Assembly: GCA_029266635.1 (NCBI GenBank)
Contig: JAQSWM010000004.1
Span: forward strand, 62,001-126,000
Direction of reading: 5' to 3'
Length of the DNA: 64,000 nt
DNA from: Sphingobacteriaceae bacterium
Lineage (GTDB): Bacteria > Bacteroidota > Bacteroidia > Sphingobacteriales > Sphingobacteriaceae
The position numbers and the translations under genes are program-made. The first letter of the stretch is position 1, and every line of letters starts with the position of its first letter. The notes beneath the pieces are model-generated. The model made no database searches. It worked only from the letters and a program-made list of their open reading frames with translations, and was not told where the DNA came from. Positions 4,078 through 16,643 of the stretch are shown one piece after another.

Positions 4078-4476
4078 ATGGAAAAAGATATTATTCCTAA
4101 CATTGATACTTACATTTCGCAGTTTCCTGCAGATGTTCAGAACCTGCTGAACGAGCTTCGGGCAGCTATACAAGAAGCAGCGCCCGATGCGGAGGAAACT
4201 ATCAGCTATGCAATGCCAACCTTCCGGCTCAAGGGGAATCTCGTTCACTTTGCTGCTTACAAAAACCATATCGGCTTTTACCCGGCAGCGTCGGGCATAA
4301 AGGCTTTCAGCAAAGAGCTGTCGCAATACAAAGGAGCGAAGGGTTCTGTACAATTCCCCCTGGATAAACCTCTGCCACTGGACATTGTCTCCGAAATTGT
4401 GAAGTTCAGGGTAAAGGAGAATTTAGAGAAAGCGGCTGCAAAAAGTAAAAAGCAGATAACAACCGCGATTTCGTAA
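4078..4476 (+). CDS. DUF1801 / YdhG-like protein
   Basis: A 132-residue protein of the DUF1801 (YdhG/YjbR-like) family, recognised from EETISYAMPTFRLKGNLVHFAAYKNHI and the GFYPA segment. Relatives have been linked to iron handling, but the function is not established. It starts 15 bp after proA and may be co-transcribed. Its last six codons, including the stop, lie inside the first unit of the 21-bp repeat array that begins at 4459, so the array has replaced or grown into the 3' end of the gene. Confidence 0.8.
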   Translation: MEKDIIPNIDTYISQFPADVQNLLNELRAAIQEAAPDAEETISYAMPTFRLKGNLVHFAAYKNHIGFYPAASGIKAFSKELSQYKGAKGSVQFPLDKPLPLDIVSEIVKFRVKENLEKAAAKSKKQITTAIS

Positions 4477-4731
4477 CTCACAATTGCAATTTCGTAAGTT
4501 GAAATGGCAGTTTCTTAACTCGAAATCGTCATTTCGTAATTCACAATTGCGATTTCTTAGTTCGAAACCCGGATTTCGTACTTCACAATTGCGATTTCGT
4601 ACTACGAAACGACGATTTCTAACTACACAATTGCGATTTCTAAAGTCGAAATCGCGATTTCGTAATTCACAATTGCGATTTCGTAAGTCGAAATCGGAGT
4701 TTCTCAACTCGAAATTGTCGGATTGGTACAC
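4459..4731. repeat. 21-bp tandem array 1 (13 units, exact register)
   Basis: Thirteen consecutive 21-bp units with no insertions or deletions. Each unit is three 7-bp words. The first word is of type A (ACAATTG) or type B (GAAATCG), the second is close to CGATTTC and the third close to GTAAYTC. Unit order is A A B B A B A B A B A B B. In type B the first two words form the perfect palindrome GAAATCGCGATTTC. Units are contiguous, without spacers, so this is not CRISPR. The period of 21 bp is two helical turns and also seven codons, which is why frames stay open through it. The first unit carries the stop codon of the DUF1801 gene. Confidence 0.9.
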
Positions 4732-5107: not shown

Positions 5108-5378
5108 TGTTCTGAGTGTTGGGATCGCGGTTTGGGAAAGGAAAAACTGCTTCTGGTATCTTAAGGAACTCAAAGCCGCACACATTGAAAGGTTTTCTGC
5201 TGACCAGACAAGGATACTGCATTCTGCTGTCTGCCTTCTGGTGACTTCCCTAATATTGGGTGTTAATTACTACTTCCAAATCCTGCCACGGCATCTGGTG
5301 ATCTGGACTGTATTTGTTAGCTTTCCTTTGGTGGTAGCTTCATTCGACTTTGTAACCGGGCGGAATCGGTACTTCTGA
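5091..5378 (+). CDS. small two-helix membrane protein, copy 1
   Basis: Unrecognised family. The frame encodes ELKAAHIERF, then a first hydrophobic segment (HSAVCLLVTSLILGVNYYF), the charged link QILPRH and a second one (LVIWTVFVSFPLVVASF), ending VTGRNRYF. A second copy at 6079-6342 differs mostly at synonymous positions (for example CTG/CTT Leu, GTG/GTT Val, CAA/CAG Gln), which argues that this was a genuine coding sequence. The start is uncertain: the frame opens with a TTG at 5091 inside the last unit of array 2, so the gene may be truncated at its 5' end. The stop overlaps REP-like copy A. Confidence 0.4.
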   Translation: MGILTRVLSVGIAVWERKNCFWYLKELKAAHIERFSADQTRILHSAVCLLVTSLILGVNYYFQILPRHLVIWTVFVSFPLVVASFDFVTGRNRYF

Positions 5379-5434
5379 TAGTTTAGCGAAGGAATCGCTG
5401 TTCGCCAGCATCCTCGTCGCAAACGAGGAGGATA
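5377..5434. repeat. REP-like palindromic repeat, copy A
   Basis: One of three copies (with 6338-6390 and 6526-6582), all in the same orientation. Each has two potential hairpins, AGCGA/TCGCT and CCTCGT/ACGAGG, separated by a short link. The layout resembles REP or BIME elements, but no tyrosine transposase of the REP type is in the window. Confidence 0.7.
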
Positions 5435-5486: not shown

Positions 5487-5888
5487 ATGTCAGCATACAT
5501 GCAACATAACCTACATTATAATCCCCGGCTGCAGCCAAATGCCAAAAAGCTCCGTAATGAAATGACCAAAGCAGAAGCTTGCCTGTGGAAATATGTGCTA
5601 AGGGCAAGTAGCATGAAAGGTTATCGCTTCACTCGCCAGCGCCCGGTGTTTAACTTCATAGCCGACTTCATGTGCAAAGAATTGAACTTAATTATCGAAG
5701 TGGATGGTTTTACTCACACGTGGGAAATGACCGTAGCTAAGGACGAATTGAAAGAAGCGGAACTGCTGAAGGCTGGATTTAGGACAATCCGCTTTTCAGA
5801 TGATGAGGTATTGACTTCAATTAATGGAGTGGCTGATGCGATTCGAAAAGTGATAGAAGAAATAGAACTGCAAAGCTCCATAAGATAA
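5487..5888 (+). CDS. DUF559 (Vsr-like endonuclease fold) protein
   Basis: 133 residues, a complete DUF559 domain: RNEMTKAEACLWKYVLRA, then the PD-(D/E)XK-like core FIADFMCKELNLIIEVDG (Asp and Glu-x-Asp), ending in GFRTIRFSDDEVL. The family is related to very-short-patch repair and restriction nucleases; its role is not established and stand-alone copies are common in Bacteroidota. The in-frame ATG at 5499 (MQHNLHYNPRL) is an equally good start. The gene is bracketed by the two copies of the small membrane-protein gene and by REP-like repeats, which suggests a repeatedly rearranged or mobile segment. Confidence 0.8.
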   Translation: MSAYMQHNLHYNPRLQPNAKKLRNEMTKAEACLWKYVLRASSMKGYRFTRQRPVFNFIADFMCKELNLIIEVDGFTHTWEMTVAKDELKEAELLKAGFRTIRFSDDEVLTSINGVADAIRKVIEEIELQSSIR

Positions 5889-6078: not shown

Positions 6079-6342
6079 CACGGACTATATTGGCAACTTA
6101 ACCGGCTTGTCTACTTCAGAGATCTTGAGGAACTCAAAGCCGCACACATAGAACGGTTTCTGCAGACCAGACAAGCATAGTTCATTCTGCTGTCTGCCTT
6201 CTTGTTACTTCCATGATATTTGGTATCAATTACTACTTCCAGATCCTTCCACGGCATCTTGTAATCTGGACTGTATTTGAGCTTTCCTTTGGTGGTAGCT
6301 TCATTCGACTTTGTAACCGGACGGAATCGGTACTCGGGATAG
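6079..6342 (+). pseudogene. small two-helix membrane protein, copy 2 (frameshifted)
   Basis: Aligns with 5115-5378 over its whole length. Relative to copy 1 it has lost one T in the run after the Arg codon of HIERF and two bases after the codons for IWTVF; restoring both gives a protein ending in VTGRNRYSG. Between the lesions, most differences are synonymous or conservative (Leu/Met, Val/Ile), so the copy diverged under selection before being broken. Its upstream part (LYWQLNRLVYFRDLEELKAAH) is better preserved than the corresponding part of copy 1 and hints at a longer original protein. Confidence 0.6.
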
Positions 6343-6390
6343 TTTAGCGAAGGAATTGCTGTTCTCTAGCATCCTCGTTGCACCAGGATA
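6338..6390. repeat. REP-like palindromic repeat, copy B
   Basis: Same element as copy A, placed directly after the broken membrane-protein copy just as copy A follows the intact one. The second hairpin is damaged: the right arm reads ACCAGGATA instead of AACGAGG. Confidence 0.65.
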
Positions 6391-6525
6391 ATAAGGAGTA
6401 ATAACAGCAAAATTGTCATTGACGATGGATTCGGCTGTCCAAATTAACAATCTTAAAGGTGAATGGAATCATCCCTGTGGTGTTGCGTGAGCTAAGCCGG
6501 ACCGAGTCCTCTGTTTTATGGAGAG

Positions 6526-6582
6526 GATAGTTTAGCGAAGGAATCGCTGTTCTCTAGCATTTCGTTGCAAACGAGGAGGATA
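6526..6582. repeat. REP-like palindromic repeat, copy C
   Basis: Third copy, without an attached membrane-protein fragment, ending 39 bp before the end of the defence operon. The first hairpin is intact; the left arm of the second has lost bases (CATTTCGT in place of CATCCTCGT). Confidence 0.65.
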
Positions 6583-6621: not shown

Positions 6622-9051
6622 CTATTTTTTTAATTCTTCTAATTTGACCAGCAAGTTGTGAAGCTTCATTACTGAAGTTTTGTAAACTGAACTCGAGTAT
6701 ATAAACCCCTTGTGATAATTGTCTTCAGTCCAATACAGTTTTAGCTCTTTAGCGATATTGGCAATAACAGAAGGATAATCCTCCAAGCGATTATAACCTT
6801 TCATTTTAAGTAGTCTGATGAACAAACCCTCGCTGGGAAGGTTGTAAAATTGAACTGCAAAGTTTTTACGCTCATATATGAAGTCAGAAGCGTGAATATA
6901 TGGCGTTTCTGAACTACCTCTTACCGGGACAAGATTAAACTGAAAGGATGGATACTCTTCTTCATCTAGGTCTAACCATGCTTTATAAACATAGTAGTCA
7001 GTTCGCAAATGGTTCATTTGCGAAGCATTAAGCAACTGAATGTTGGCGAAATTGTCGGTCGTCTGGATAAACCCTTGTTTACAGTAACCGATAAACTCCG
7101 GCTGCTTGATAAAGTCATACCTCCAGTCATTTTCATTAAAATTCTTAATACGCTGTTTCAACGATTCGGATGTATCATGGAAGTCAAAGGAGCTGTCTTG
7201 TAGAATGCTGTAAAAAATATTTCGTTTTGCCCGCCATGTGCTGTCTAAAAGGTTGTTGTAATCAAGTTTTAGCATTCGCTTCCAACTGTAATCACGTTCA
7301 TAGTTGCTGACACTTCTACTCGAACTGAAATTATATTGATCGCCCTTTTTGATTAGATAATTACCATAACTTAAAATCGCCCGCTCGAAGGTATAATCGG
7401 CGTTATTTTCCAATTGTTTGAAAAAGGAAACCGCTTTACTACAAAACTGGTTGAATATTGTTAGCAGTTGATCGGCTTCGATGTTATTTCTTAAGGCGTT
7501 GGTGTTAAAATCTACATTCTCCAAAATACCTGACAGTTCTAGCAGATAGCCAATTTGAGCTTTATGAAATACGCTTTGCTCAACCTCGAAAATTGTAACA
7601 TAAAATTGTGTTGAAAGTGCTATAAGATTCGCCTTTATGCGCTCTTCTATGATCTGATCGCTGTCAAAAAAATTGACCCTTCCATTTCTTCGTAAATACG
7701 CTAGAATATCACTGGAATAGGGCAGCAAATCTTTAATGCTTCGGAACGCAGGAACAATCATCTCCTGTGCGTTCATAATTTTGTTTTCTACCAAATTTAC
7801 TACCACTCTCATCCAATGTTGAAGTTGCTCCCCTTGCGGATTCCCACTTAGCAAGTACTTTAAATAGGCGTAAAATTTTACCCGATCAGGATTTTGAATC
7901 TTGTCCTCTAACACAGATCTAAAAACATCCTCTTCGTTAAAGTAAATGTTGTTACAGTTCTTCTTTATCCCGCTGTCGTCGTACTCTAAGACATCCAGCA
8001 CATCAATGAGAAAATTGATACTATTTCTTGTTATTAGGGGATAGGTATTTAGCTGATTAAACGTTTCAAATTTTTCGTTCAGAATTGTCTCTAATCCTTT
8101 ATTGTCTTCGCCGCTCTGTTCAATATAGTGGTAAAGCAGAATTTCCTTGATAAAGGAAAATATCTCATCGTCAAACGTGTTTGGATTTCCAGCTACGCCT
8201 CTGTACTTCCAAAATAGCTCGCTCCATACGGAATCAATTTTAAATGAAAAATATTCCTTTGTGCCGTATTTTATTTGCTGCCCATTGTGCAGTATAGTCC
8301 TTTGTATATCATCTTTCCTAAATAACTTGTCTACCGATTCTTCAAACCTAGCTTTGAAGTTTTCAAATGCCGTTAACGTCTTTCCTCTCGCATTCATCTT
8401 GATATAGAGGTCGTCCCCCTGTTTAAGACTTTGTAGGTTTAGGAAAAGAAAAGTAATAACCGGATTTTCTGTTGAAGTGAGTATATGATAAAAATGTGGA
8501 CTGTCCGCGAAGAAAACGTTAATTTCCTCTAGCATGTGCAACATCGATACAATGGTGGGATCATAGCTCCACGATGATTTATACCAGTGTAGATTTTGTA
8601 CATATTCCACCAGCCGACTTCCGCTTTCATTTAAGTCTTTAAAGTCGATTCCTTCATTTACAAGGCAATTGCAAAAGTCATTCGAGCTTCTCCTAACCTC
8701 ATAGTTAAATCTCAAACCCGAACCATCATGCAGCCTCGTTTTCCAATCCTGTCTGTTGTTGCTGATAAACGCTAAATAGGTGTGTAATAGAAACAACGTT
8801 GTCAGGCGTTGCTGGCCGTCTAGAGGGATAAAGTTTTCCTCTCTTTCGTATCCATAAACGAAGTCGAGATCCTTATTCTCACCGGCTTTTAAATAGCTTT
8901 TCAAAGATGTAAGAAACTCTTGTCGTATTTCCTTTTTATTAGGCTTGCCCTGAACAAAATCCCTTTGTATTAACGGTATAGATATTTTGTAATTGTTATC
9001 TTGTATGAGCTCAATAAACGAGTACTTTTTGCCAATTGTTTTAGTGTCCAT
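6622..9051 (-). CDS. DUF262 protein, GmrS-like, no visible nuclease domain
   Basis: 809 residues. The N-terminus has the ParB-like DUF262 signatures IPLIQRDFVQG (25-35) and DGQQRLTTL (78-86), followed by YIKMNARGKTLTAFENFKARFEE typical of these proteins. In GmrSD, BrxU and SspE this domain binds and hydrolyses nucleotides. I find no DUF1524 His-Ile-x-Pro motif in the long C-terminal part, which is rich in aromatic residues and ends in a Lys/Glu-rich helix. It is the last gene of the five-gene operon, 9 bp after the DUF262-DUF1524 gene, so the two may form one complex. Base composition is AT-rich compared with the housekeeping genes. Confidence 0.85.
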   Translation of the reverse strand: MDTKTIGKKYSFIELIQDNNYKISIPLIQRDFVQGKPNKKEIRQEFLTSLKSYLKAGENKDLDFVYGYEREENFIPLDGQQRLTTLFLLHTYLAFISNNRQDWKTRLHDGSGLRFNYEVRRSSNDFCNCLVNEGIDFKDLNESGSRLVEYVQNLHWYKSSWSYDPTIVSMLHMLEEINVFFADSPHFYHILTSTENPVITFLFLNLQSLKQGDDLYIKMNARGKTLTAFENFKARFEESVDKLFRKDDIQRTILHNGQQIKYGTKEYFSFKIDSVWSELFWKYRGVAGNPNTFDDEIFSFIKEILLYHYIEQSGEDNKGLETILNEKFETFNQLNTYPLITRNSINFLIDVLDVLEYDDSGIKKNCNNIYFNEEDVFRSVLEDKIQNPDRVKFYAYLKYLLSGNPQGEQLQHWMRVVVNLVENKIMNAQEMIVPAFRSIKDLLPYSSDILAYLRRNGRVNFFDSDQIIEERIKANLIALSTQFYVTIFEVEQSVFHKAQIGYLLELSGILENVDFNTNALRNNIEADQLLTIFNQFCSKAVSFFKQLENNADYTFERAILSYGNYLIKKGDQYNFSSSRSVSNYERDYSWKRMLKLDYNNLLDSTWRAKRNIFYSILQDSSFDFHDTSESLKQRIKNFNENDWRYDFIKQPEFIGYCKQGFIQTTDNFANIQLLNASQMNHLRTDYYVYKAWLDLDEEEYPSFQFNLVPVRGSSETPYIHASDFIYERKNFAVQFYNLPSEGLFIRLLKMKGYNRLEDYPSVIANIAKELKLYWTEDNYHKGFIYSSSVYKTSVMKLHNLLVKLEELKK

Positions 9052-9060
9052 AGTTTGAAA

Positions 9061-10857
9061 CTAGTTTAGGTAATAGGATAGTGCTCCTTTTAAAGACTCG
9101 AAATATGCAGTAGCATCCGTCTTTCTCCAGTACATCACCTCGGCAAATTGCTTACTATAATACTTTAGAAATACATTTTTTGTGCAGATTGGCACAAACA
9201 GCCCCTTCATGTCGTTTTCTATGATTTGGTTACGCTTTATTGGAAATAGTGCGTTTCCATAGCCTCTGTTTGTTTGTGGATCAAGTAGTGTGAGATTAGA
9301 AAGGTGGTTGGTCTCTTCGGCTTCCACCCCTCGGTATAAGGAGAACAGCTTTGCTGACAAGTCTTCAACTTTTGGCTTGTAATCAATTTCGTCATTTAAG
9401 ATATCAATGATTTGGTTAACCGTTGCCTTTTCCTCTTCATGTAAGTTTTGCATCAACTCCTCGACGCATTCATCATATTCTTCGGAGTTCTTAAGAATAT
9501 CTGAAAGCTGTAATTTCTGACCGGTTAAATACTCCAAAATATCCAAGCACCAGTTTTTATAAAATTCAATCTTATCAAAAGGATTTTGTGGGTTGATGTG
9601 TTCGATGTCCCATGATTCGTTCTTATATCTGTCAAATGGAAAACGAGTATCAGCCTTATTCGACTGTAGTAAACTTTCTATATTGAAGAGCAGCAGAACC
9701 TTGCGAATGTTTTTCTTATCCTTTGGTTTGTCAAAATCCAATTCATCTAAACTGATGCCGTTGGTTTTTGCTTTTATAGCATCTTTAACGCTCTTTATAA
9801 ATTGCTTCTTGCTTTTTCCTGCCGCCAGTTTGGAGACTTCTTGTATCGAGGTTTGGATGTGGAACAGATATCCGATGTAGTGGTAGAGAGTATGATCGGA
9901 ATACCACTCCTCAAGCTGCGAAAATTGGTTTTTTATCATTTTCCAAACTTGATCAATATCGAAAACTTCCCTCTGTTCAAACGTTGATTTCCTTTCGCTT
10001 TCTATCAGATTATTGAAGAAATGGAAAGTATGGAGCTTTTCGCTTTCCTTGCCTTTTTTCGAAACAATATCCAGTAGCAGTTCAATCTTATTATCATATC
10101 TGCTGTCCATATCTAAATCGGTGAGAAAATACCAAAACGAGGGGTTTGAGAGCTTCCGTTCGATGTCATCCCATTCTGAGGCTAGAAAAACTTGTTTTGC
10201 AGTCTCATTTGATTTAAAGTTTTTCTCCCTTAAAAAGAGAGCTTTTACTAGTTCAGCATTCGTGAGAGGAATTTTGCCGATGTTAATACGTGTAAACACA
10301 TCAATAGCATCTTTGGGTTCAATTTCATACCAGATAAACTTCACATTCCTTCCTTCCTCGTCTGGCGCTGTGATGGTCTTTAACATATTCATTTTCAGAA
10401 TGCCATCTTTGTCCCGGAACCAATCATTTACCGCTTTATATGCGCCGTGAATGTGATAATAGTCTACATTGTCGTTAGCACTTGACTCATCAATGACTTT
10501 TAGGTACTTTTCACTGTCTGGTCGGGTTTCATATTCAAGCACATATTTGCCTTTGCCTAGAATTGTAGCGATTTCTTTCAGACAGGTTAAAATGATATAT
10601 ATGGTTGTTAATCTCTGCTGCCCGTCAATCAAATAATACTTACCATTTTGCGGATAGACGATTAAAGGCTGTAAACAATAGAACGTACTCTTTTCAGCTA
10701 TCTCATTGTTTTTGGTAAATTCGTAAATGTCATCTAAAAGATCATTTACTTCGTGCGAAGTCCATCTATAACCTCGTTGATAAGAAGGAATAAAAAATTT
10801 CTTATCTAAGAGGTTGCTTATCGGTTCTAACCTGATCTTTGCTGATAATGCTGTCAT
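9061..10857 (-). CDS. DUF262-DUF1524 protein (GmrSD-type IV restriction-like)
   Basis: 598 residues. The DUF262 part shows PSYQRGYRW (24-32) and DGQQRLTT (78-85); the C-terminal DUF1524 part has the HNH-type pattern DIEHINPQ (His420), LSNLTLLD (about 519-526) and NRGYGNALFPIKR (530-542). In characterised relatives (GmrSD, BrxU, SspE) the first domain hydrolyses nucleotide and the second cleaves DNA, often DNA with modified bases. All key nuclease residues are present, so it should be active. It sits 5 bp after the unknown 210-residue gene and 9 bp before the second DUF262 gene in the operon. Target is unknown. Confidence 0.9.
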   Translation of the reverse strand: MTALSAKIRLEPISNLLDKKFFIPSYQRGYRWTSHEVNDLLDDIYEFTKNNEIAEKSTFYCLQPLIVYPQNGKYYLIDGQQRLTTIYIILTCLKEIATILGKGKYVLEYETRPDSEKYLKVIDESSANDNVDYYHIHGAYKAVNDWFRDKDGILKMNMLKTITAPDEEGRNVKFIWYEIEPKDAIDVFTRINIGKIPLTNAELVKALFLREKNFKSNETAKQVFLASEWDDIERKLSNPSFWYFLTDLDMDSRYDNKIELLLDIVSKKGKESEKLHTFHFFNNLIESERKSTFEQREVFDIDQVWKMIKNQFSQLEEWYSDHTLYHYIGYLFHIQTSIQEVSKLAAGKSKKQFIKSVKDAIKAKTNGISLDELDFDKPKDKKNIRKVLLLFNIESLLQSNKADTRFPFDRYKNESWDIEHINPQNPFDKIEFYKNWCLDILEYLTGQKLQLSDILKNSEEYDECVEELMQNLHEEEKATVNQIIDILNDEIDYKPKVEDLSAKLFSLYRGVEAEETNHLSNLTLLDPQTNRGYGNALFPIKRNQIIENDMKGLFVPICTKNVFLKYYSKQFAEVMYWRKTDATAYFESLKGALSYYLN

Positions 10858-10862
10858 TGTGA

Positions 10863-11495
10863 CTATTTTATTTTGCTCTCTATTGTTTCTAACAATTGCT
10901 CGTATTGAGATATGATATTGCTTTTTTCTGCCAGCTCCATTTTGTACTGCTCCAGCGTATATTCCTGTTTTTCCTGCTTAAGCCGAGTTTTATAGTATTC
11001 TTTGTAAATAAGTGCTTCCTTTAAGGTTGAGCAGTTCTCGTCCACTTCAAGAAAGAAGTTCCATGCTTCCTGAAAATCTGGTGTTCCTGATACCTCGTAC
11101 TCAAGTGTACGACCAAGCTCTTCCGTTCGTGCAATTGTTATGCAAGGAGCTAACATTCCGTACCGAGTAAAATTAAAATGTAGGTTCGTTACCGCCCAAT
11201 TCTCTGCGGACACTTTACTTATAATAGGGGATGACTGGTTACAAAGCATCGCTATTAACTCGTGATTGCTTTTGCTCCAACTTCCACTTGTATAGCCATA
11301 ATAAGCGAGAAAAAAAGCATATTTATATTCGGGTTCATAAAAAAAGCTCGGGCTATTGGTAGTTCGACAACGGTTGTCGTTATAAACAACGATATAGTCT
11401 ATGGTTTTTGAGTAAGGGCTCATTCGTGCCACAATCTCTTCAAACTTTGCAGCTTTAATTACTTCTATCGCTTGTAGAACTTCTGGAACATTCAT
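10863..11495 (-). CDS. unrecognised protein in the defence operon
   Basis: 210 residues of no family I recognise. The N-terminal two-thirds is a mixed alpha/beta sequence rich in aromatics (FFYEPEYKYAFFLAYYGYTSG) with a single NWAVTNLHFNF strand; the last 50 residues are strongly charged and helical (KTRLKQEKQEYTLEQYK and on), probably a coiled coil suited to binding a partner. It lies 16 bp after hsdMS and 5 bp before the DUF262-DUF1524 gene, so it is embedded between the type I and the GmrSD-like parts. It could be an adaptor, a sensor or an inhibitor. Function not assigned. Confidence 0.7.
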   Translation of the reverse strand: MNVPEVLQAIEVIKAAKFEEIVARMSPYSKTIDYIVVYNDNRCRTTNSPSFFYEPEYKYAFFLAYYGYTSGSWSKSNHELIAMLCNQSSPIISKVSAENWAVTNLHFNFTRYGMLAPCITIARTEELGRTLEYEVSGTPDFQEAWNFFLEVDENCSTLKEALIYKEYYKTRLKQEKQEYTLEQYKMELAEKSNIISQYEQLLETIESKIK

Positions 11496-11511
11496 ATAGT
11501 CAATATTTAAT

Positions 11512-14049
11512 TTATACCTCTTCTATTTCGCTCCTCCCAACCCTCCCATACTCCACCACCCCCTCTGCCGCCATACTCAAAACCTCTTCCTCTTCTTCCT
11601 TCTCTTTGCCCCACACTTTAGCTATCCTGTCTTTTATCTTTTGCTCAAAGATTTGGATGAGCTGCTTGTTGGCGTTTACTAATTCTTGTTCGCGTCGCAA
11701 CCTCGATATGATTTTGGTTTGAATTTCAACAGGAGGGAGCGGAAGTGTGAACCTTCTTAAGGAATTAAGCGAGACTGTTTTTTGCGCCATCCCCGTAGCA
11801 GCTCTATTGGCTTGCAAAAGTGCATCAGGAGACTGCAAATAGTAGAAGAGATAATGGCTTAATACTTTCTTTGATGGACGGATTAAGGCGATGTGCCTTT
11901 GGAAACAAAAGTCTAAATCGAAATCAATTAACACTGGAATACCGTATGAACCTGTAACGGTATATAAGATATCGCCGTTAAACGGTTTTCTATGAGATTT
12001 AATATCCTCAAAGTATCGGCGAGGGACAAAGAATGTGTTTGTGAAATCTATTCCTTCAAGTGGGGCGATATTCGAAATTGTTATGAATGGTACTCCATTC
12101 TCTGCTTTTGGTGGCGGCTGGTGATCGCCATCAGAAATGCTTTCACAAACATCTCCCAACTCCACCATTTCCCAACTTGGATCTATATCAATCTTAGGCT
12201 TGTAGTTTTCTACTACTGCTTTGGCGCCATCTAGTATTTTTTGATAGCCTTCTATCTCGGCAACTATTTCTTCCTGGACTGATATAGATGGGACCGGGAT
12301 CTTTATCCTTTCAAGATTCCCCTTAGTGATATGAACTAATCCGACTCCACCATGTAAATTGTTTTCAACTTCATTTACCGCCTCGTTAAGAATGTGAAAT
12401 AGGTATTTCTTATTTGCCTTCTTATTATCGAAATACACATTGAAAATATGTTGATTTAAGACGGCTTTTTTTCCAAACCATATGTGTGCTCCAAATGAGG
12501 TTCCCCTTGAACCAGACCAAGAGAAAAGTAAATCCCCAGGTTGTACGATATGTCTTCTATCTACTTCTCCTGAGTAATAATTAAACGTTGCTCCTTTGTT
12601 GTTTAGGTTCTGTATTCGAATGATGGGTAAGCCCCCGCCTTCTTCATTTTCCCAGTCGATTGGTTTGAATGCCCGTCCATTAACAAGCTCACATACTGCT
12701 CCAATTTCCATCAAAGGAAAATTCGATGGTCTTTGCGTTGCTGTTTTATACCTCTCCCCACTTAAATTATAATCCCCACTCTTACCTATTTCTTTTCTGG
12801 CAACTTTGTGAGCAACAGAACCTAAACTTGCGCCGCCCACAGCAAAGTCATGAATTATTTCTACAGCTTCTTCCAACTGGCTTCCTTTTACGGCATTCCG
12901 CTGTGTGCCCAGGTTAAAGCCGTCGTTATCAATCTTTACAAATAGTATCTCGTCGCGGGTTTTTGCCAGTTCTTTGTCCATCAATAGGATGGAGGTTTTT
13001 ACTCCGCTGTACGGGTTGAATATCCCGGCAGGCAGGCTAACTACGGCGTAGAGGTAATTGTCAACCAGCATTTTGCGCAGGGCTTTGTAAGCTGTGCCGC
13101 TTTGAAAGATAATGCCTTCGGGCACAATGATACCGGCTTTGCCTTTTGGGTTGAGGTGTTCGGCAATGTAATCTACAAAGAGCACTTCGCTACGGTTGCT
13201 GCTGATGCTGAATTTCTTATGCGGGCGTATTCCGCCCTTCGGGCTCATGAAAGGTGGGTTCGCCAGGATGCAATCGAAAGTTTCTCCCCAGCGCTCTTCA
13301 CTGCTCAGGGTATCGTACTCGTATATGTGCGGAGAGGGGAAGCCATGCAGGTATAAGTTTACTAAGCTAAGCCGCACCATATCGGGCGAGATGTCGTAAC
13401 CGGTAAAGTTTTGCAGCAGGCGTTTGCGTTCATCGGGCGTAAACTCATCGTTGTTCTGTTCTTTGATGTGCTTAAAGGCAGAGATGAGAAATCCGGATGT
13501 GCCGCATGCCGGGTCCAGTATCTTATCGTTCTTGCCGGGGTTCACAATCTTTACCAGGAAGTCTATGATGTGGCGGGGCGTGCGGAATTGTCCGGCATCG
13601 CCTTGTGAGCCCATTACCGAAAGCAGGTATTCAAATGCATCGCCTAGCTTTTCGCTATGCGTATATTCAAAGCCTCCGATAGTTTTCAGGAATAGCTTGA
13701 GTGTTTCGGGGTCGCGGTAGGGCAGGTAGGCGTTCTTGAAAATGTCGCGGAAGAGCTGCGGGATGTTGGGGTTCTTGTCCATGCTCATCAAAGCCTCCGA
13801 ATAGAGGCGGAGCATTTCGGCAGCGGTAACTTTGGTGTTGAACAGGTTATCCCAGCTAAACTTTTCGTAGTCGTCGGAGAAGAATTTGGCTGTCCCGCCA
13901 AGGTCTATGGTTTCCTTGTCCATGTCGTCCATGAACTTGTAGATAAGCGCAATGGTAATCTGTTCTATCTGGGCTTTTGGGTCGGGCAGTTTTCCTACCA
14001 GGATGTCGCGGCAGTCGTTTATACGGTTTTTGGTCTGGGGATCTAACAT
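11512..14049 (-). CDS. fused type I methyltransferase and specificity subunit (HsdM-HsdS)
   Basis: 845 residues. Residues 1 to about 440 are an N6-adenine methyltransferase: helical HsdM N-domain, motif I DPACGTSGF (179-187), motif IV NPPF (264-267). From about 445 the chain continues as a specificity subunit with two target-recognition domains (starts near MEIGAVCELVNGRAF and MVELGDVCESISDGD), each followed by a conserved helix (SVQEEIVAEIEGYQKIL, EIQTKIISRLRREQELV). M and S are normally separate genes. The S part is markedly AT-richer than the M part (17 G+C in 12421-12480, 32 in 13501-13560), as if swapped in. It begins 8 bp after hsdR. Confidence 0.93.
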   Translation of the reverse strand: MLDPQTKNRINDCRDILVGKLPDPKAQIEQITIALIYKFMDDMDKETIDLGGTAKFFSDDYEKFSWDNLFNTKVTAAEMLRLYSEALMSMDKNPNIPQLFRDIFKNAYLPYRDPETLKLFLKTIGGFEYTHSEKLGDAFEYLLSVMGSQGDAGQFRTPRHIIDFLVKIVNPGKNDKILDPACGTSGFLISAFKHIKEQNNDEFTPDERKRLLQNFTGYDISPDMVRLSLVNLYLHGFPSPHIYEYDTLSSEERWGETFDCILANPPFMSPKGGIRPHKKFSISSNRSEVLFVDYIAEHLNPKGKAGIIVPEGIIFQSGTAYKALRKMLVDNYLYAVVSLPAGIFNPYSGVKTSILLMDKELAKTRDEILFVKIDNDGFNLGTQRNAVKGSQLEEAVEIIHDFAVGGASLGSVAHKVARKEIGKSGDYNLSGERYKTATQRPSNFPLMEIGAVCELVNGRAFKPIDWENEEGGGLPIIRIQNLNNKGATFNYYSGEVDRRHIVQPGDLLFSWSGSRGTSFGAHIWFGKKAVLNQHIFNVYFDNKKANKKYLFHILNEAVNEVENNLHGGVGLVHITKGNLERIKIPVPSISVQEEIVAEIEGYQKILDGAKAVVENYKPKIDIDPSWEMVELGDVCESISDGDHQPPPKAENGVPFITISNIAPLEGIDFTNTFFVPRRYFEDIKSHRKPFNGDILYTVTGSYGIPVLIDFDLDFCFQRHIALIRPSKKVLSHYLFYYLQSPDALLQANRAATGMAQKTVSLNSLRRFTLPLPPVEIQTKIISRLRREQELVNANKQLIQIFEQKIKDRIAKVWGKEKEEEEEVLSMAAEGVVEYGRVGRSEIEEV

Positions 14050-14057
14050 AGGTTCCG

Positions 14058-16643
14058 CTAAGCTGCGAACTGTTCTAACTTGATGTAATCTTTAATGTAA
14101 ACCGGTATAACTTCCCGGTATTTGGCTGCTACTTCTTTAAACTGCGAGATAGTGAGCGTGGGACTGGTTTGCAGGGCATGGAAATCTTTTGCAGCAATGA
14201 TGCGGCGGATGTCCTGATCTACAATGTAAGCCTTGAAGAAGTATTTGAGCGCACGCACGTTTACGTCTTCTTCGGGCGGGTAGATGGAGATGAACTTGTC
14301 AAACTCTTCTTCCAGCAGTTCATCTTTTGATTTGAACTTTGGCCTAATTCCGAATATTTTTTCTACTACTTCACGGATGGTGATTTTGCGATCTACGCCT
14401 GCCGCCTTCCGTAGCTTTTCAAGCGTATAGTATTCGTCAGGCTTGTAAAAAACCTCGCTTTCTATATAGCTGATAATTTGCTCCCAATTGTCCAGCGCCA
14501 CATTCTTCTTAATGATATCATCCATCACAATTCGTTCTTCAAAGTCCCTGTAATAGAGCATCCGGTCTATCTTCATGCCGTCTAAGCCAACCTGTTCTTC
14601 CTTCAGGAGCCACAAAGGATCGTTCCGCTCGTTGGTGTATTTGTCGATGTTTACAGGTCCTTCACCACCACCTTCACCGCCTTCCTGCGGTTTGGGCAGG
14701 TTGAGTTTCTTATCGTAGTCGAACTTCTCTTCAAAGTACTCGCAGTTAGCAAAGAAGTCGAAAAGGTTGAATGTTTCTTTTTCAAAAATTGTGAGCTCTT
14801 CTTCGTTCAGTTCGTTCTTGCTCCTGAACTCGAAAGTATTCTTGCGTGTGCCCCTTCCTTTTATCTGTACAAAATCAGCAGGGCTGAAGATGGGGCGCAT
14901 CATGCAAATGTTTAGCAGGTCGGTACAGTCGTAGCCGGTAGTCATCATGCCTACGGTAACGCATACACGGGTTTTGCAGGATTGATACCCTTCCAGCCAG
15001 CTTGTTTTGCCGTTCAGGATATTTTCGCTGAAGTTGGTGGTCATTTGCTGTGCTTCGGCAACCTGCGAAGTTACCTGTACGGCGAAGTCGGAATTGTATT
15101 TGCCGGGGAATATTTGCTCGGCAAAGTCATTGAGTATCTCGGTGAGCTTGCGTGCGTGGTTCTGGCTTACCGCAAAGATGATGGTTTTGCCAATCTCGTT
15201 GGTGATGGGGTCGCGAAGGGCATTCTCCAAAAAGGTCTGGCAGAATACGCGATTGGTTTTATCGGAGAAGAACTTCTTTTCAAAGTCGCGGGAGACAAAG
15301 GTTTCGGTTTGTTCTCCTTCTTCGGTGGGGATGAGCACGGCATATCCTTCGTCGGAAAGCATCTGTGTGGTTATTTCTGTTCGGGCATCCAGCACTTTGG
15401 GGTTAACCAGAAAACCGTCTTTTACACCATCAAGCAAAGAGTAGCGGAAGGTAGGGTCACCGCCTTCACAGCCGAAGGTTGCATAGGTGTCGCGTAGCAT
15501 GCGGCGCTCTATTTCTCTCGGGTCGTTTTCTTTGACTTTGTTGAGGTCAACGCCTTTCAGGTAATCTTTTGGGGTAGCAGTTAGGCCGAGCTTATAGCCT
15601 CTGAAATATTCAAATACTGCTCTTGCGTTTCCTGAGATGGAGCGGTGGGATTCATCGGATATGATCAGGTCGAAATCTGTAGGCAGGAACTCATACCGGT
15701 ACTTGTTATCAAACATCAGCGACTGGATGGTGGTGACCACTACGTCTGCTTTGCGCCAGTCGGTTTTGTGTTCTTTGTATATGAAGGTTGAGTAATCCGG
15801 CTTGAGGTAATTGATGAAAGCTTTCGAGGCTTGATCTTCAAGCTCTAAGCGGTCAACCAGGAATAAAACCCGCCTGGCGTTTCCTGTAGATAAGAATAAC
15901 CTGATAACGGCAGCAGAGGTAAGGGTTTTGCCGGTGCCGGTTGCCATTTCAAAAAGGAAGCGGTCTTTGCCCTTGCCTGCAGCCTTTTGCAAGTGCCTGA
16001 TGGCGCTAAGCTGGTAGTCGCGGAGAAATTTGAGCTTGTTGGTTCTGATGAATTCTTTGCTGTCCTTTATACTGCCGTTCCAGCCGGGCCTTTGAGCATA
16101 GTCGGGCATCTGGACAGTAACGATGTAATCGTTGTCGACGGGTTCGTTCACCAGGCTACCGCGATCGGGATTCCAGGCTTTTATGCCATTGATCTCTTCG
16201 GCAGAGGGGAAGGCAACAATGGTTTCAGGGTTTCCTTTCTTCAGATTCCACAAGTAATGGACCACGCCATTCGAGAGGATTACAAAAGAAGCTCCGACGG
16301 TATTGGCATATTTTCTTGCCTGCTCTTTGGCAACGAGAGGGTGGAGGCTCTCCTTTTTGGCTTCGAGGACACAGAGCGGCTTCTGATTAGAATCTACGAG
16401 CAGGAAGTCGAGAGAGCCGTGTTTGGTTTTCTCAAAATCGTTGCCCCATTCATCAGCCTGCTTGCTTGTGATTTTTACATGGTTTTCCAGCAGGATGTTG
16501 GCGGGGCCTTGTTCATTGTCAAAGAATCTCCAGCCAGCCTGTTCGAGCAGTTGGTTAATCCTGATGCGTGCGTGAGCCTCGTTCTTCATTAATACTTGCC
16601 GGGGTGGCAAAACCTCATCATCTACAGCTTTGTAGTTTGACAC
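14058..16643 (-). CDS. hsdR: type I restriction enzyme, restriction subunit
   Basis: 861 residues. The N-terminal nuclease has Asp79 in DFLLVD and Glu94-x-Lys96 in VLEAKKE. The superfamily 2 helicase core follows: Walker A MATGTGKT (233-240), DESH (330-333), LGLTATP (352-358), and later MMTTGYDCTDL and QIKGRGTRK. It should translocate DNA and cut unmodified DNA when complexed with the fused methyltransferase-specificity protein encoded 8 bp downstream. First gene of the operon. The start codon is GTG at 16643, with no other in-frame start near; no TAnnTTTG box was found in the 120 bp upstream, so the promoter is not located. Confidence 0.94.
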   Translation of the reverse strand: MSNYKAVDDEVLPPRQVLMKNEAHARIRINQLLEQAGWRFFDNEQGPANILLENHVKITSKQADEWGNDFEKTKHGSLDFLLVDSNQKPLCVLEAKKESLHPLVAKEQARKYANTVGASFVILSNGVVHYLWNLKKGNPETIVAFPSAEEINGIKAWNPDRGSLVNEPVDNDYIVTVQMPDYAQRPGWNGSIKDSKEFIRTNKLKFLRDYQLSAIRHLQKAAGKGKDRFLFEMATGTGKTLTSAAVIRLFLSTGNARRVLFLVDRLELEDQASKAFINYLKPDYSTFIYKEHKTDWRKADVVVTTIQSLMFDNKYRYEFLPTDFDLIISDESHRSISGNARAVFEYFRGYKLGLTATPKDYLKGVDLNKVKENDPREIERRMLRDTYATFGCEGGDPTFRYSLLDGVKDGFLVNPKVLDARTEITTQMLSDEGYAVLIPTEEGEQTETFVSRDFEKKFFSDKTNRVFCQTFLENALRDPITNEIGKTIIFAVSQNHARKLTEILNDFAEQIFPGKYNSDFAVQVTSQVAEAQQMTTNFSENILNGKTSWLEGYQSCKTRVCVTVGMMTTGYDCTDLLNICMMRPIFSPADFVQIKGRGTRKNTFEFRSKNELNEEELTIFEKETFNLFDFFANCEYFEEKFDYDKKLNLPKPQEGGEGGGEGPVNIDKYTNERNDPLWLLKEEQVGLDGMKIDRMLYYRDFEERIVMDDIIKKNVALDNWEQIISYIESEVFYKPDEYYTLEKLRKAAGVDRKITIREVVEKIFGIRPKFKSKDELLEEEFDKFISIYPPEEDVNVRALKYFFKAYIVDQDIRRIIAAKDFHALQTSPTLTISQFKEVAAKYREVIPVYIKDYIKLEQFAA

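Follow-up and report, generated by a model that had tools for sequence, protein, structure and literature searches.

A type I restriction-modification operon of a Sphingobacteriaceae bacterium with a GrwAB-like DUF262 pair and an orphan gene as its probable cargo

A row of five minus-strand genes at 6622-16643 of the window, by which we mean the whole 64,000-nucleotide stretch of Sphingobacteriaceae DNA analysed here, is very probably a type I restriction-modification (R-M) operon that carries, as cargo downstream of hsdMS, a type IV restriction pair of the GrwAB kind together with a rare orphan gene, P3. The simplest working model for the locus is of two independent restriction layers that share one transcription unit.

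The Locus

The five co-directional ORFs follow one another as hsdR, hsdMS, P3, P2 and P1, with gaps of 8, 16, 5 and 9 bp, all exactly as the initial annotation had given them. Its assignments also held up against Pfam, NCBIfam and the PDB: an hsdR, a fused hsdM-S, an unrecognised gene of 210 residues, a DUF262-DUF1524 gene, and a second DUF262 gene that lacks DUF1524. Genes that are co-directional and separated by such tiny gaps are likely to be co-regulated even if their functions are separate, and the five form one apparent transcription unit. The Pfam E-values of hsdR, hsdMS, P2 and P1 were far beyond chance, and the catalytic motifs of these four genes are intact, so that they look functional. 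The source genome, of about 3.6 Mb in 18 contigs, yielded no DUF262 or Methylase_S genes other than those in the window.

Just downstream of the operon is a stand-alone ORF for an endonuclease-like protein of 133 aa (5487-5888), flanked by a direct repeat of about 290 bp (5147-5434 and 6111-6400, 86-92% identical), of which these are the only two long copies in the genome and of which a shorter third copy lies at 6525-6582. There is also an array of 21-bp repeats at 4461-4717, which on the minus strand reads as an ORF of 217 aa with repeated LRNR-type heptapeptides.

The Type I Core and Its Exchangeable Cargo

The first gene, hsdR (14058..16643, minus strand), has a GTG start and encodes an EcoAI-like type I restriction subunit of 861 aa, with Pfam matches to ResIII (1.5e-38) and HSDR_N_2 (2.6e-7), a match to a type I R subunit in the PDB (3h1t, 8e-29), and a match to the NCBIfam EcoAI-type R model (3.3e-62) that falls under that model's curated cut-off. 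Its SF2 helicase motifs GTGKT, DESH, TATP and GRGTR are all intact, and a PD-(D/E)XK-like nuclease signature, D79...E94-A-K96, could be picked out by eye. The fused hsdMS (11512..14049, minus strand, 845 aa) has an HsdM part in residues 1-440 (12730..14049), with an N6_Mtase match (1.5e-54, Pfam), matches to HsdM chains in the PDB down to 4e-41, the NPPF motif and the sequence DPACGTSG, and an HsdS part in residues 441-845 (11512..12729), in which two target-recognition domains are represented by two Methylase_S stretches and which matched the S subunits 5ybb_D and 3okg in the PDB. Judged from these sequences, the HsdR nuclease and helicase, the HsdM N6-adenine methyltransferase and the two-domain HsdS that a type I R-M system requires are all present. 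The GC content of the target-recognition half of hsdMS (11512-12729) is 0.39-0.43, versus 0.49 for the methyltransferase half, and an AT-rich recognition half is as expected if recognition domains get exchanged.

Close relatives of hsdMS, 41-59% identical to it, were found in 14 genomes, two of which belong to the same family and the other twelve to the class, and wherever the contig allows, a relative of hsdR (52-81%) adjoins them. What varies is the cargo, which among these relatives included Mrr_cat, an RloC-like AAA_13 ATPase with an HD/HATPase gene, an SMC-like ATPase (SMC_N), HipA-like and HIRAN genes, DUF6602, DUF3800 and transposase-like ORFs; at none of the 14 did it include a DUF262 gene or any relative of P1, P2 or P3. 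Base composition divides the window's operon along the same line. The hsdR gene (GC 0.475) and the M part (0.489) are host-like, versus AT-rich P3, P2 and P1 (0.385, 0.372 and 0.372). The GC split and the swapping of cargo together mark the operon as a composite, in which a core has captured cargo.

Three of the hsdMS relatives (L081, L084 and L085, 596-621 aa) have apparently one target-recognition domain; these half-S fusions occur beside full-length hsdMS relatives in the same class.

A Conserved DUF262 Pair

P2 (9061..10857, minus strand, 598 aa) is a GrwA-like DUF262-DUF1524 nuclease, with Pfam matches to GmrSD_N (4.5e-31) and GmrSD_C (1.2e-7), and P1 (6622..9051, minus strand, 809 aa) is its GrwB-like partner, in which a DUF262 domain (GmrSD_N, 6.2e-19) is followed by a long C-terminal region where Pfam found neither GmrSD_C nor another nuclease domain. 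The DUF262 nucleotide-binding motif DGQQR occupies residues 78-82 in both proteins (10612..10626 in P2 and 8806..8820 in P1). Motif and alignment also placed His420 of P2 (codon 9598..9600), the His-Me finger catalytic residue in E-H-I-N-P, as well as Asn521 (9295..9297) and Asn530 (9268..9270). All three were invariant in an alignment of 19 P2 sequences, in which R82 was nearly so, and the corresponding P1 alignment (19 sequences) revealed invariant residues in its C-terminal region, namely R415, N419, E470, K473 and E491.

Ten of the 395 genomes of the class, besides the window, gave matches to P1, nine of which were taken as real relatives (G012, a weak match at E 7e-4, was left out). These nine Bacteroidia genomes, with 10 plasmids from several phyla and 11 viral contigs, some of which may be misassigned host fragments, supplied 30 P1 loci. 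In all 30 a P2 relative is encoded directly upstream of the P1 relative, mostly overlapping it by a few bases, although the P1 relatives are only 23-35% identical. A pairing that is invariant over such large distances points to joint function, and P2 and P1 are best regarded as one conserved two-gene system. The initial annotation had listed the two DUF262 genes as two GmrSD-like proteins, and this needs correction, from two enzymes to a single two-protein system of the GrwAB/TgvAB kind.

The structure model of P1 was usable (pLDDT 75), and a fold search of it against the PDB gave no significant match. Residues ~640-809 (window 6622-7134) are predicted to form an alpha/beta C-terminal domain, for which fold matches of low significance recurred to the DNA-binding domains of T4 MotA (probability 0.77, E 1.2-1.4) and to CesT-like chaperones; the resemblance is only a lead.

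Association of the Pair with Type I R-M Genes

The hsd genes around the pair were detected with profiles built from the 30 loci. At nine loci the pair lies within such genes or directly next to them; none adjoins it at the other 21, one of which, L037, does carry an hsdM at a distance of about 7 kb. At five of the nine the pair lies between hsdS and hsdR (L021, L025, L027, L028 and L055), and elsewhere it comes after hsdM-hsdS (L049), before hsdM (L045 and L047) or after hsdR (L026). The type I proteins at these loci were in most matches 21-29% identical to those of the window, so that other type I lineages are involved. In a poorly resolved tree of 31 P2 proteins the type I association required about four changes, fewer than with shuffled labels, and it may have had a single origin.

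The exact order hsdR-hsdMS-P3-P2-P1 was present in no other locus examined. The initial annotation had proposed a five-gene unit, perhaps one complex, had suggested a search for the same order in other genomes, and had named separation of the DUF262 and hsd genes in most relatives as one result that would count against it. A unit or joint complex is disfavoured by the missing order, by the loci at which the pair has no hsd neighbours, by the other cargo at the core and by the occurrence of P3 with neither module. The contrary result named by the initial annotation was thus obtained in part: linkage is not obligate, but the pair is recurrently linked to type I loci in general. Three things are unusual: a GrwAB-like pair stands next to a fused hsdM-S, similar pairings recur with type I proteins of other lineages, and P3 is present.

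The Orphan Gene P3

P3 (10863..11495, minus strand, 210 aa) had no match in Pfam, NCBIfam, PADLOC or the PDB, and in PHROGs only one at E 0.012. A search of about 85,000 species genomes, 72,556 plasmids and 2.9 million viral contigs, by a method that favours close relatives and may miss distant ones, produced one convincing relative, 35% identical over residues 71-209, in Solitalea longa of the same family, and a weak match in a further genome (G161, E 8e-4). The Solitalea longa gene is near RadC-like and McrBC-like genes, which were named by eye from sequence, and no relative of P1, P2, hsdMS or hsdR was found near it. A structure model of P3, made from an alignment of two rows, was too poor for a fold search (pLDDT 47).

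Across loci P3 tracks neither the pair nor the type I core, and most likely it would be a passenger or a regulator and not a required part. It has the base composition of the pair and sits 5 bp from P2, and on these grounds it may be linked to P2-P1.

Discussion

The precedents for this locus come from Vibrio cholerae. GrwAB, for which type IV restriction has been proven, consists of two proteins that are both needed, and it targets phages whose DNA has sugar-modified hydroxymethylcytosine or deazaguanine (PMC12137116). GrwA is a DUF262-DUF1524 protein, GrwB, the second gene, combines DUF262 with several extra unknown domains, and the residues found essential were R81, H431, N521 and N530 of GrwA and R86 of GrwB (PMC12137116). 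The counterparts in the window are R82, H420, N521 and N530 of P2 and R82 of P1, the spacing from H to the two N residues matches, at about 100 and then 9, and the gene order, DUF262-DUF1524 followed by DUF262 with a long unknown C-terminus, is that of P2 and P1. The architecture, gene order and residue spacing, as GrwAB has been described (PMC12137116), therefore point to P2-P1 being GrwAB-like. The surroundings differ, as the V. cholerae copy is located on VSP-II of the WASA lineage, beside a Shedu gene (PMC12137116), whereas the window's pair sits in a type I operon.

In that respect the locus resembles TgvAB, the published case of such a system inside a type I R-M operon, that of VPI-2 in V. 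cholerae (PMC11411939), which likewise has five genes, the hsd genes plus a DUF262 pair in which one member carries DUF1524. That P2 and P1 are instead a pair of the TgvAB type, with P1 as TgvA, nevertheless seems quite unlikely. The TgvAB operon has the order hsdM-hsdS-tgvA-tgvB-hsdR (PMC11411939), with hsdM and hsdS as separate genes, no P3, a partner protein of another type, and the DUF262-only gene first in a pair that lies between hsdS and hsdR, while in the window the order within the pair is reversed and the pair ends the operon. GrwB and TgvA have only DUF262 in common (PMC12137116), and the spacing of the TgvB catalytic residues, H571 and N602 (PMC11411939), is unlike that of H420-N521-N530 in P2. 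Looser parallels exist in RloF and other R-linked ORFs of Campylobacter type I loci, where a DUF262 gene is also accessory type I cargo (PMC4619093), although RloF is placed between hsdS and hsdR and the window's cargo comes after hsdMS, and in single-chain type IV enzymes such as BrxU and GmrSD, which share the DUF262 and DUF1524 layout of P2 but act alone, whereas P2 has a conserved second DUF262 protein. Among the defence domains found near GmrSD, those of type I systems are the commonest (PMC4619093).

A GrwAB-like pair could still be functionally bound to its neighbours, as in the PrrC/EcoPrrI precedent (PMC12707154), and the five genes would then be one integrated system in which the pair or P3 needs the type I enzyme or is triggered by its failure. 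The co-directional genes, their 5-16 bp gaps and the type I association at 9 of the 30 loci fit such a system, but we consider it quite unlikely given the 21 loci without adjoining hsd genes, the different type I lineages that the pair joins, and the other cargo at the hsdMS core of 14 relatives. An obligate joint machine is further argued against by V. cholerae, where the five-gene cluster with HsdR inactivated restricted modified phages as before (PMC11411939). P3 in particular might have the dedicated role of a coupler or guard, linking the pair to the type I enzyme so that the five genes make up a two-layer system; it could, for instance, unleash the pair or a lethal activity once HsdR is blocked by a phage protein. 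PrrC at EcoPrrI provides a guard precedent (PMC12707154), and we hold such a role for P3 to be very unlikely. A different trigger is suggested by the match of P2 to SspE profiles and by the finding of SspE in the PDB with the P2 profile (E 8e-16). SspE relies on host modification, namely phosphorothioate, and by analogy the DUF262 pair could read the mark of a resident methyltransferase and not phage hypermodification. This strikes us as highly improbable, in that a type I methyltransferase is missing next to the majority of the pair's relatives, and GrwAB and TgvAB, the nearest pairs to have been characterised, act against base modifications of phages (PMC12137116, PMC11411939).

We therefore favour two independent layers. 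HsdMS would methylate adenines of a bipartite site, and HsdR would cut DNA without that mark, as their intact domains suggest. From the GrwAB and TgvAB experiments and the conserved catalytic residues, P2 and P1 would act together, using their NTP-binding DUF262 domains to sense phage DNA with bulky modifications on its bases, and P2 would cut such DNA with its His-Me nuclease. The two systems would work side by side, with no joint complex: phages with plain DNA would meet the type I enzyme, and those whose modified DNA blocks it would meet the pair. P3-P2-P1 would have arrived apart from the hsdR-hsdMS core, as base composition and module swapping indicate. These results support the proposal of the initial annotation that one operon joins a type I R-M system to a modification-dependent system of the GmrSD family, and it is plausible that the two cover both plain and modified DNA; complementary cover has been proposed for TgvAB and its type I system (PMC11411939) and also for BrxU and BREX (PMC8565348).

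Type I linkage had been published for TgvAB (PMC11411939), and the papers cited here do not mention it for GrwAB. A pair of the GrwAB kind can now be placed within type I R-M clusters or next to them, in Bacteroidota as well as at several further loci. This supports the view that defences against plain DNA and against disguised DNA become paired through module swapping, and such loci are natural pairs for asking whether the two partners help each other.
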